NCBI GenBank assembly: GCA_028280965.1
Contig: JANQKT010000021.1
Coordinates: 1-64,000 of the forward strand
DNA from: Phycisphaeraceae bacterium
GTDB taxonomy: Bacteria; Planctomycetota; Phycisphaerae; Phycisphaerales; Phycisphaeraceae
DNA length: 64,000 bases
Direction: 5' to 3'
Below the pieces are notes generated by a model. It was not told the DNA's origin. It did not search any database and saw only the letters and a program-made list of their open reading frames with translations. Both the position numbers and the translations under genes were made by a program. Shown one piece after another: positions 48,201 through 62,896 of the stretch (position 1 is the first letter of the stretch; each line of letters starts with the position of its first letter).

Positions 48201-48294
48201 GGAGGACAGGCATTCCTGCCTGTCGTTCGGCAAAGCCGAATCCCGACCCGAATCAGGCTTGCGGCCTGCTGACAGGCAGGAATGCCTGTCCTCC
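48201..48294. repeat. 24-bp perfect inverted repeat (GACAGGC...GCCTGTC family)
   Basis: ggaggacaggcattcctgcctgtc (48201-48224) and exact reverse complement at 48271-48294. Confidence 0.9.
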
Positions 48295-56711: not shown

Positions 56712-56793
56712 TAGAAAGCCGGGGTCCCGAGATCGTGTCGGGTGTCAATGATAAGTGGGACAGGCAGGACTGTCTGCCCCACAAAGAGCCGGC

Positions 56794-57569: not shown

Positions 57570-58868
57570 ATGCATCGCCTGTTGCTAATGCTGCTGCTCA
57601 CCCTCCCCGCCTGCCAGCGCCCGCCGATGGTGCTGCCGACGATGTTCGAGGCCGGGCGGGTAGACCCGCTGGCGGACGTGCCCGAGGCCGAGCGCACCCA
57701 GACGCTGACACTCTTCTACGCCACTGACCGCCGCTACGACGCGGACGCGACCGACTGGCGTCAGTACGGCCGGCGCCGCAACGGGGACATCGAGGTCGGC
57801 CAGATCACGGTCAAGCTCGCGCCGAAAGACGACTGGTCGGCGATCAGTGCCGCTGCGCGCGGCGAGGATGGCGCGAAACGCTATAGCCCTCGGATGACCG
57901 TGCTCAACCGTATGGGCCGGCTCGACACAGCCAGTGGATTGGCCGCTCCTCCTGCCTCGCCGGATGATGGCGCCAATCAACGGAACACCGTCAAGACGCA
58001 TTTCATATCGAGCCTGAACGCCGCGCTCGAGCGCTCAGCGGGCAAAGAAATCACCGTCTTTATTCACGGCTTCAAGACCGACTTCAAGAACGCCGCGCTC
58101 TCCGCCTCGGAGTACGACCTCTATACCGGCGGGCTTGGGCCGTTTATCCTCTACAGCTGGCCGAGCTACAACAGCCTGTGGGAGTACAGCCACGACCGCG
58201 ACTCGGTCCGCTTCACCACCGCGCACGCCCGGCAATTTGTGGCGCTGCTCGCCGACGAGATCCGGGCCGGCGGTCTCGGTGCGGAGAAGATCAACTTCGT
58301 CGCCCACAGCTCCGGCGCGGAGGTGGTCGGGTCGGTCCTGCGCGAACTCGCTTTGATGTCGGACGAATTGTCGCCCGAGGAACGCCAGCAGCACTGGCGG
58401 ATCGGGTCAGTGCTGCTGATCGCGCCGGACATCAGCACGGACGTCGCCCGCGAACGTGTGCTGAAAGAAGACCTGCGTGGGATGTGCGACGAGATCGTCG
58501 TTTACAGCTCCCGCCGGGATCGGGCGCTGGATTGGGCGGCACGCATGCTGTACCGCACGCCGCGGATCGGGTCGATCCGCGAGCAAGACCTGACAGACGA
58601 CGACCGCTACTGGCTCGGGCAGGCGGGCAATGTCGCGCTGATCGATATCGACAGCCAGCCGAACAAGGACTTCGTCCACCACTCGCACCACCGCTTTTCC
58701 GCCGCGGTCGCGTCGGACATCATCCTCTGCCTGCGCAGCGGCCTGCCCCCGGGCAAACGCGGGCTGGCCCGCGGCGAGGGCAGACTCATCTGGCGGTTTG
58801 CGGATGACTACGCCGACCGCGTGACCGAGGCGGCGGTGCGTGTCTACGGGGAACGCCCGGCGCCATGA
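57570..58868 (+). CDS. Alpha/beta hydrolase lipoprotein (DUF900-like)
   Basis: Lipobox LLTLPACQ; VFIHGFKTDFKNA; FVAHSSGAEVVG. Confidence 0.8.
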   Translation: MHRLLLMLLLTLPACQRPPMVLPTMFEAGRVDPLADVPEAERTQTLTLFYATDRRYDADATDWRQYGRRRNGDIEVGQITVKLAPKDDWSAISAAARGEDGAKRYSPRMTVLNRMGRLDTASGLAAPPASPDDGANQRNTVKTHFISSLNAALERSAGKEITVFIHGFKTDFKNAALSASEYDLYTGGLGPFILYSWPSYNSLWEYSHDRDSVRFTTAHARQFVALLADEIRAGGLGAEKINFVAHSSGAEVVGSVLRELALMSDELSPEERQQHWRIGSVLLIAPDISTDVARERVLKEDLRGMCDEIVVYSSRRDRALDWAARMLYRTPRIGSIREQDLTDDDRYWLGQAGNVALIDIDSQPNKDFVHHSHHRFSAAVASDIILCLRSGLPPGKRGLARGEGRLIWRFADDYADRVTEAAVRVYGERPAP

Positions 58869-59752
58869 TCGATACGCACTGCCACCTGACATACGACGGC
58901 CTGCACGAGCGTGTTGACGCCGTGCTCGCCGCCGCCGCTGAGGCCGGCGTGGACCGGATGATCAGTGTGGGCACGACGCCCGCCGACGCGGAGAAGGCGC
59001 GGGCGCTGTCTAAGCGCAAAACAAGTGTGTTCTTCACCGCCGGGCTGCACCCGCACTACGCCGATCGATACACGGACAAGCCGGCGCTGCTCGACGCGCT
59101 GGGCGAGAAGCTGAGCGACCCGAAATGCGTCGCGATCGGGGAGATGGGCCTGGACCGGCACTACCCCGACCCGCCGATAGAGGATCAGCGGCGGGTGTTC
59201 GCGTGGCAGTTAGAGCTCGCAGCTGAGATCGGGGTGGCCGGGGATGAGCGAAGCGAACCCCCGGAACAAGCGGGTGCAGGCAAATCAAAGACAATCCGTT
59301 CCGGGGGGTCGCCAAGCCTCCACCCCGGCCACCCAACCTTCCGGCGGCCGATCATCATCCACAACCGCGAAGCGACGGACGAGACACTTGAGATCCTGCG
59401 CCGCTCCGGCATCGCGCCCGAGCGTTTTGTTTTCCATTGCTTCACCGGCACCGCGGACGAACTGGACGCGATCCTCGGCTTCGGCGCGATGGTCAGCTTC
59501 ACCGGGATCGTCACGTTCGGCAGCGCGAAGAAACTTGCCGCATCGTCCGACGCCGTGCCGCTGAACCGGCTGATGATCGAGACGGATTCGCCATACCTCA
59601 CACCCGAGCCACACCGCAAGGTCCGCCCGAACGAGCCGCGCTACGTCACAGACGTCGCGCGCTTCCTCGCTCAGCGGCGCGGGATGACGCTCGGAGATTT
59701 CACCGCGGCGGTCGATGCGAACGCCGAGCGGTTCTTCGGGCTGCCTTCATAG
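58865..59752 (+). CDS. TatD family metal-dependent hydrolase with in-frame insertion
   Basis: MIDTHCHLTYDGL; GEMGLDRHYPDPP; RPIIIHNREATDETLEIL; FHCFTGT; ETDSPYLTPEPHR; ATGA overlap with upstream gene. Confidence 0.92.
   Translation: MIDTHCHLTYDGLHERVDAVLAAAAEAGVDRMISVGTTPADAEKARALSKRKTSVFFTAGLHPHYADRYTDKPALLDALGEKLSDPKCVAIGEMGLDRHYPDPPIEDQRRVFAWQLELAAEIGVAGDERSEPPEQAGAGKSKTIRSGGSPSLHPGHPTFRRPIIIHNREATDETLEILRRSGIAPERFVFHCFTGTADELDAILGFGAMVSFTGIVTFGSAKKLAASSDAVPLNRLMIETDSPYLTPEPHRKVRPNEPRYVTDVARFLAQRRGMTLGDFTAAVDANAERFFGLPS
59231..59334. repeat. Imperfect inverted-repeat element inside the TatD CDS
   Basis: ggggtggccggggatgagcgaagcgaacccccggaac versus gttccggggggtcgccaagcctccaccccggccaccc. 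Confidence 0.8.
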
Positions 59753-61114: not shown

Positions 61115-61255
61115 GATTCGCTCCTGGTCTTGGCGTGAGGCTGAAAGATGAGTCGTCGGCGGGCGACGCTTGTTACATCGACCCGGCCCGGCGTCTGCTT
61201 AATCGCTGCGCATCCAAGGCCCGGAAACTCGGCGTTTGCAGCCGATAATGGGCCG

Positions 61256-62896
61256 ATGCCGATAGAACCAGCAATGCCAAAACTCGCCGAACAAGCCGCG
61301 ATAACTGCGCTCGACACGCCCAACGACCGGCCGACAACGATCGTTGTCGGTACGGCGCTGAGCGCCGCTCAGCTTGCGCACACGCTCGCGGTTGCCCTGC
61401 CGACGCCGGAGCTGGTCGGCTGCGTGCTGCCCGCGGTTGCAGTGGAACACGCAGGCGACGCCGACGCACCGCCCTGCCCGACGCTCGGCCCGATGGACCT
61501 GCTCGCCGAGCTGATCGAGCACCACCGCCCTCAGCTCGTGCTCGTCTCGCTGCCGCTGGCCATGCGCGAGGCGATCGGCAAAGCCGCCGCGACGCTGGGC
61601 CGGCTGGGCGTGACCTGGCGCTTCATGCCGACCCTCGACGACCAGCTCGCCGGGCGGACCACCAGCAAGATCACCGGCGGGCTGCCGACCTCCGCCGCGA
61701 ACGCCGCCGGGCTCAGCGCCCCGTCCTTCGTCACCGGGCCCATCGACCCGACGCGCCTGATCGACCGCAGCCCGCGGCCGCTGGACGGGCGGGCCCTTGC
61801 CGACTGGATCGGCGGGCGCCGCGTGCTCATCACCGGGGCCGGCGGGTCGATCGGCTCGGAGCTCGCGCGTGTCGTCGCCCGCTTCGCCCCCGGCCGCCTG
61901 ACACTCGTTGAGCGGTCCGAGAACGCGCTCTTCGAGATCGACCGCGAGCTGGCCCGCACGCACGCCACGCTCGAGCGCGACGCCGTCCTGCACGACGTCA
62001 CCCAGCGCGAACGGACGTTCGACCTACTCCAGCACTACCGGCCGGATGTCGTCCTCCACGCCGCGGCCCACAAGCACGTGCCGATGATGGAGGACCACCC
62101 CGCCCAGGCGATCGAGAACAACTTCTACGGCACGCGCGCGGTCGCCGACGCCGCGGCCGATGTCGGGGCCGAGCGGTTCGTGATGATCTCGACCGACAAG
62201 GCCGTCAACCCCTCGTCGGTCATGGGCGCCAGCAAGCGGCTCGCCGAGCTGTACGTCCAGTACCTCAATACAACGAGCGGCACCAGCTGCTGCATGGTCC
62301 GCTTCGGCAACGTGCTCGGCTCGGCTTCCAGCGTCCTGACCATCTGGACCAAACAGCTCGAGCACGGCGGGCCCATCACCGTCACCGACCCGGACATGAC
62401 CCGCTACTTCATGACGATCCCGGAAGCCGCCGGGCTCGTCCTGCAAGCAGGGATGTTCAGCGGAACCCTGGGCGCCACAACCGCACAGGCGGGGCAGGCT
62501 TCCAGCCTGTCATCACGCGGCGGCGAAGTCTTCCTTCTGGACATGGGCGAGCCGATCCGCATCCTCGACCTCGCCCGCCGATTCGTCCGCCTGCAGGGCT
62601 TCGAGCCGGACGTCGATGTCGAGATCCAGATCACCGGCACCCGCCCGGGCGAGAAGCTCTTTGAAGAGCTCGCCTACACCGGTGAGGACATGCTCACGAC
62701 CCCGCACGACTCGATCCGCGTCTGGAAGACCAACCCGCCCAGCCCCGCACGCATGCACTCGATCATCGAGACCTTCGACCGCCTGCGCAACAAGACCGCC
62801 GACCCGGACCGCAACTGGCGTGACGCCTCGGCCGAGGCCATCATCACCGCCCTGCGCATCGCGGTGCCGGAGATGGTGCACGCCGCGGCGGGTTGA
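61256..62896 (+). CDS. CapD/FlaA1-type nucleoside-diphosphate sugar epimerase/dehydratase
   Basis: RRVLITGAGGSIGSELARVVARF; HAAAHKHVPMMEDHP; STDKAVNPSSVMGASKRLAEL; FGNVLGS. Confidence 0.92.
   Translation: MPIEPAMPKLAEQAAITALDTPNDRPTTIVVGTALSAAQLAHTLAVALPTPELVGCVLPAVAVEHAGDADAPPCPTLGPMDLLAELIEHHRPQLVLVSLPLAMREAIGKAAATLGRLGVTWRFMPTLDDQLAGRTTSKITGGLPTSAANAAGLSAPSFVTGPIDPTRLIDRSPRPLDGRALADWIGGRRVLITGAGGSIGSELARVVARFAPGRLTLVERSENALFEIDRELARTHATLERDAVLHDVTQRERTFDLLQHYRPDVVLHAAAHKHVPMMEDHPAQAIENNFYGTRAVADAAADVGAERFVMISTDKAVNPSSVMGASKRLAELYVQYLNTTSGTSCCMVRFGNVLGSASSVLTIWTKQLEHGGPITVTDPDMTRYFMTIPEAAGLVLQAGMFSGTLGATTAQAGQASSLSSRGGEVFLLDMGEPIRILDLARRFVRLQGFEPDVDVEIQITGTRPGEKLFEELAYTGEDMLTTPHDSIRVWKTNPPSPARMHSIIETFDRLRNKTADPDRNWRDASAEAIITALRIAVPEMVHAAAG
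62491..62511. repeat. GGCAGGC...GCCTGTC-type repeat inside the epimerase CDS
   Basis: ggggcaggcttccagcctgtc, encoding part of the GQASSLS peptide. Confidence 0.6.

Follow-up and report, generated by a model that had tools for sequence, protein, structure and literature searches.

The tatD gene in the window, by which we mean the whole 64,000-nucleotide stretch of Phycisphaeraceae DNA that was analysed, carries a palindromic insert within its reading frame. Judged by its sequence anatomy, the insert is a REPIN (an inverted doublet of REPs) of a family resident in the Phycisphaeraceae. We think it very probable that this REPIN was mobilised in trans, copied into tatD and kept there by a selective filter for tolerated sites. 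Insertions of REPs into genes are already known; what is unusual and distinctive here is that three different insertions share a single loop of the same enzyme.

The tatD gene and its insert

The initial annotation had described a TatD hydrolase interrupted in frame by a palindrome, and this insert is confirmed. A single ORF of 295 residues (Table 1) matches Pfam TatD_DNase at 2.4e-71 in two stretches, which adjoin each other in profile coordinates and are separated in the protein by the insert; the TIGR00010 match is likewise parted there. The frame is unbroken and the downstream motifs are intact, as had been claimed. The presumed metal-site residues H5, H7, E93, H166, H191 and D241 are invariant in the TatD alignment (A3), so that the protein shows both the profile match and the conserved metal-binding residues of the TatD family. 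The dN/dS of tatD against the relative G003 is 0.22, a value consistent with purifying selection that would, if the insertion is recent, mostly reflect the time before it.

The length of exactly 111 nt given at the outset holds for the insert as defined by alignment, whereas the repeat itself covers only 103 nt, the other approximately 8 nt keeping the frame. The imperfect palindrome with arms of about 37 nt was recovered as two arms, one slightly shorter and one slightly longer than this, around a spacer. From the palindrome and its flanking bases TatD gains about 37 residues, SGGSPSLHPGHPTFR among them, with no stop codon. It might be supposed that a compact hairpin within a coding gene is bypassed or excised from the RNA instead of being translated as such, and the sequence is compatible with this. 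Nevertheless, the intact, stop-free frame makes bypass needless, and this copy is in any case open in four of its six reading frames; we regard this explanation as barely credible.

Table 1. Features of tatD and of the repeat inside it (positions in the window)
Feature	Position	Strand	Basis
tatD (TatD-family metal-dependent DNase/hydrolase, 295 aa)	58865-59752	+	ORF list; Pfam and NCBIfam profiles; frame unbroken through insert
REPIN by anatomy, 103-nt inverted REP doublet in tatD	59232-59334	+	Own-genome copies; covariance-model match of 109 bits (copy in training set)
Left REP arm, 36 nt	59232-59267	+	Alignment A4 of copies; covariation within arm
Left arm, outer GTGG tag	59234-59237	+	Alignment A4
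Left arm, hairpin (CCGGGG...CCCCGG)	59238-59264	+	Alignment A4
Spacer between REPs, 29 nt	59268-59296	+	Differs among copies (alignment A4)
Right REP arm, inverted, 38 nt	59297-59334	-	Alignment A4; covariation within arm
Right arm, tag CCAC	59329-59332	-	Alignment A4
Right arm, hairpin	59301-59328	-	Alignment A4
Coding region of inserted loop, residues ~123-160, predicted disordered	59231-59344	+	AlphaFold; loop-length survey

Copies of the repeat in its own genome and in relatives

A BLAST search with the 111-nt insert returned several near full-length copies in its own genome (G000) with E values down to 1e-19, which places its status as a repeat far beyond chance. A covariance model was then available from ten own-genome copies, that in tatD included. 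It gave 39 matches over both strands of this genome, corresponding to about 20 sites, so that the search for further copies proposed in the initial annotation was successful, and it matched the element in 23 of 61 genomes, the relatives being mostly Phycisphaeraceae and other Planctomycetota MAGs. Nearly all the matches cover the full 103-position model, and the top score belongs to the TatD copy, itself one of the ten training copies.

The location of 76 sites in seven genomes was screened with a heuristic based on ORFs and codon-position composition, and three candidates were inspected by eye. By this screen, which a poorly conserved host gene could escape, nearly all inspected copies look intergenic, and the TatD copy is the sole one within a coding sequence having protein-family support on both sides. 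Two copies lengthen the C-termini of proteins (G004 contig 190, L246; G000 contig 154), and the copies at L247 and L271, considered as intragenic candidates, are both intergenic. On either side of the 76 copies, the four flanking bases tend towards CGNC. This bias, which the copy in tatD does not share, could represent a preferred target or mean that the conserved end is longer than the element as defined.

Anatomy and class of the element

Alignment A4, comprising 45 copies from four genomes, has conserved ends (GGGTGGCCGGGG...CCCCGGCCACCC), two conserved arms and a variable spacer, with a nearly invariant outer GTGG tag of the GTRG type. Two inverted REPs thus form one unit, and each of them is an imperfect palindrome with a conserved hairpin of its own, as the covariation within the arms indicates: columns 14-28 pair as CG, AU, UA or GC, columns 81-95 do likewise, and double changes at key within-arm pairs occur in 22 and 25 of the 45 copies for the two arms. 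The within-arm covariation score is 0.214 compared with 0.088 after shuffling, and the double-change cells number 55 compared with 14.8. Pairing between the arms is weak (0.080 against 0.063 for shuffled alignments), with columns 14-95 paired in seven of the 45 copies and columns 28-81 in eight. A conserved structure formed by arm-to-arm pairing is therefore rejected, and the contrast between strong within-arm and scarce between-arm pairing means that each arm is kept separately as a hairpin behind the outer GTGG tag.

This anatomy is that described for REPINs by Bertels and Rainey 2011 (PMC3116915), with which the element shares the inverted REP doublet, the conserved arms, the variable spacer, the hairpins, the multiple copies and their mostly extragenic location. 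It differs from those REPINs in the low number of copies of the GGGTGGCC family (about 20), the planctomycete host, the GTGG tag, a cognate RAYT that is so far putative, and one copy lying in frame inside a conserved enzyme. Such a copy number is low for an active family and was counted against the explanation favoured here. A GTGG variant of the GTAG tag has been described in GTAG-20 of Opitutus terrae (Di Nocera 2013, PMC3733652).

The insert had originally been compared to the Rickettsia palindromic elements, and the comparison stands as far as the effect is concerned, since in both cases a conserved protein gains a peptide from a palindromic repeat within its frame. It does not extend to the anatomy, which is that of a REPIN. 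Compared by description, the Rickettsia elements occupy many genes, whereas the family considered here is tagged by GTGG and almost always intergenic, with one clear in-frame case among the 76 sites instead of in-frame copies in many genes of one genome. Some of the Rickettsia palindromic elements carry a CGTC tag (PMC3733652).

Proposed mobilisation of the repeat

According to the explanation that we favour, the REPIN would be a non-autonomous mobile element, built from a pair of GTGG-tagged REP hairpins in inverted orientation, and its copying into tatD would have taken place in trans. The copying enzyme would most likely be a RAYT (REP-associated tyrosine transposase), with single-stranded DNA as its substrate. 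The insert may have survived because it kept the frame, brought no stop codon into it and landed in a length-tolerant helix-to-strand loop, and the predicted product is an active TatD with a disordered loop of about 35 residues having no specific function.

Textbook RAYT-REP units are present in the clade, the own genome included, in which a RAYT on contig 257 (L375) is flanked by GGACAGGCATTCCTGCCTGTC doublets; a RAYT of G003 lies between GTAGGCCGGGCTTCAGCCC-type repeats and one of G002 adjoins GTGGGTATCGCT repeats. The intact RAYTs inspected carry REP families other than GGGTGGCC. There are several units of the RAYT/TnpA-REP kind (REPtrons) in the clade, but searches over 1 to 61 genomes with PF01797, NF047646 and the contig-60 Y1 as queries found no intact RAYT flanked by GGGTGGCC REPs. 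The closest approach to such an arrangement is seen on G000 contig 60, where a divergent Y1 gene and a copy are 189 bp apart, and on G003 contig 24, where a copy has a broken RAYT directly beside it.

Close to the contig-60 Y1 gene there is also a diverged copy, GTGGCCGTGGCA...TGCCACGGCCAC (L127 1309-1410). It has compensating changes, and a further copy lies 1 kb away. Within the window, the GGACAGGCATTCCTGCCTGTC family is represented by REPs at 48204-48291, 56757-56778 and 19134, one of them as an inverted doublet.

The same TatD loop in relatives

Among 51 genomes of the family that were searched, 42 gave a TatD match, one of these being a partial gene. The loop is expanded in three of the 42 (G000, G004 and G027), and the insert found here is missing from nearly all relatives. 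The interpretation first put forward is therefore supported: the repeat has other copies in the genome, and a peptide conserved across distant relatives without a nucleotide palindrome was not what the orthologues revealed.

All three expansions are palindromes, and since their sequences are unrelated to each other, they represent separate insertion events. In G004 the insert is a palindrome of about 65 nt, AAAAAGGGGATAAGTACC...GGTACTTATCCCCTTTTT, for which common origin with the own-genome insert is ruled out. An arm motif related to it has 15 matches over six genomes (none for the reversed control), and the copies inspected outside TatD are single arms, which makes its status as a mobile repeat weaker than that of the other two inserts. 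The G027 insert contains a REP hairpin of about 27 nt, AGCGAGCCGGGCCGTGTCGGCCCGGTC, with about 40 matches in its genome. The presence of two unrelated palindromes in this loop in two relatives is consistent with frequent insertion, sifted by a filter for tolerance.

Two other explanations were weighed. The assembly consists of 263 contigs, and a misjoin in such fragmented material might imitate an insertion; however, the insert is interior to a 75-kb contig, the element is full-length, the sequences on either side of it make up a single intact TatD frame, and independent inserts occupy the same site in two relatives, so that the chance of an artefact seems to us negligible. It has also been considered that the hairpin is kept because it influences expression from within the tatD mRNA, for example by making translation slower or by recruiting an RNase. 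The predicted RNA fold is indeed very stable (-67.3 kcal/mol, z -4.3 against dinucleotide shuffles, none of 200 being as low), and a function as RNA elements has been proposed for REPs (PMC3733652). On the other hand, conservation of the family is that of a DNA repeat, with copies at numerous unrelated loci; almost every relative has a tatD that lacks the insert, and Rfam offers no fitting family, merely generic hairpin matches far under the curated cut-offs; we hold such a role to be very improbable.

A REP of the G027 type, AGCGAGCCGGGCCGTGTCGGCCCGGT, was observed at L142 2190-2240 in G013, where it shares an open frame with a partial HUH transposase ORF immediately downstream.

Structure and tolerance of the loop

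The initial annotation had suggested modelling the insert as a surface loop. AlphaFold, supplied with an alignment of 58 sequences, predicts a TIM barrel whose pLDDT is 97-99 along most of the chain, and renders the insert as a low-confidence loop (46-66) between the helix 105-124 and the strand 163-168. The insert is thus predicted to be a disordered helix-to-strand loop. In TIM barrels, the loops that lead from helix to strand face away from the active site, and by this topology the insert would lie opposite the active site of TatD. In the loop-length survey, the segment holding the insert has a length of 3-14 residues across 55 TatDs that lack these inserts, with a standard deviation of 2.15 as compared to at most 0.62 elsewhere; it is the sole markedly length-variable segment, the other 15 being nearly fixed. 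Since the length of this loop varies in TatDs in which no repeat was recognised, tolerance explains the three-fold coincidence without targeting.

The coincidence might also mean that the loop is a true hot spot for insertion, or a site under selection, where something beyond tolerance counts, either the DNA target or the added peptide. The three expanded TatDs of the family (three of three) hold unrelated palindromes at one loop, and there are precedents elsewhere: GTAG-tagged REP dimers within ORFs add 20-30 residues, often in genes of DNA replication and repair, and two Xanthomonas species have different REPs at roughly the same position in recB (Di Nocera 2013, PMC3733652). Even so, the variation of the loop in Phycisphaerae TatDs with no recognised repeat speaks against it, and no obvious target motif shared by the three inserts was seen by eye in their flanks; we think that a hot spot or selected site is unlikely. 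Our opinion is equally sceptical of the idea that unrelated REP-type elements repeatedly enter the loop before the IIIHNR strand in the Phycisphaeraceae, and that their peptides or hairpins alter TatD activity or expression and are selected. If true, it would widen the preference for DNA repair genes already reported for intragenic REPs. Insertion in trans followed by a filter for tolerated sites is, in our opinion, the better account.

Precedents and significance

TatD is not named in the main text of PMC3733652, and our literature search for TatD with palindromic elements or REP sequences found no paper naming it among those listed. The present case differs from the intragenic REPs reported in PMC3733652 in that a single, structurally defined loop is occupied by three unrelated palindromes, one in each of three species belonging to the same family. 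It can be seen as a natural experiment on protein inserts derived from mobile repeats, in which three unrelated palindromes have passed one structural filter. Two questions become testable in this way, namely, the neutrality of REP-encoded loops and the cause, targeting or tolerance, of the reported excess of REPs in repair genes. Besides, a REPIN family is documented in the Phycisphaeraceae, with strong evidence for each arm as a hairpin.

The window probably contains a second in-frame REP insertion. A capD-like epimerase (Polysacc_synt_2; ORF 61148-62896, + strand) has a loop 9-18 residues longer than that of its relatives (AQAGQASSL...); the hairpin that encodes it at 62491-62511, GGGGCAGGCTTCCAGCCTGTC, is similar to REPs of the GGACAGGC family. 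Elsewhere in the same epimerase, the capD of G010 (L232) carries a different insert of about 30 residues with internal repeats (NSKLETRNSKL).
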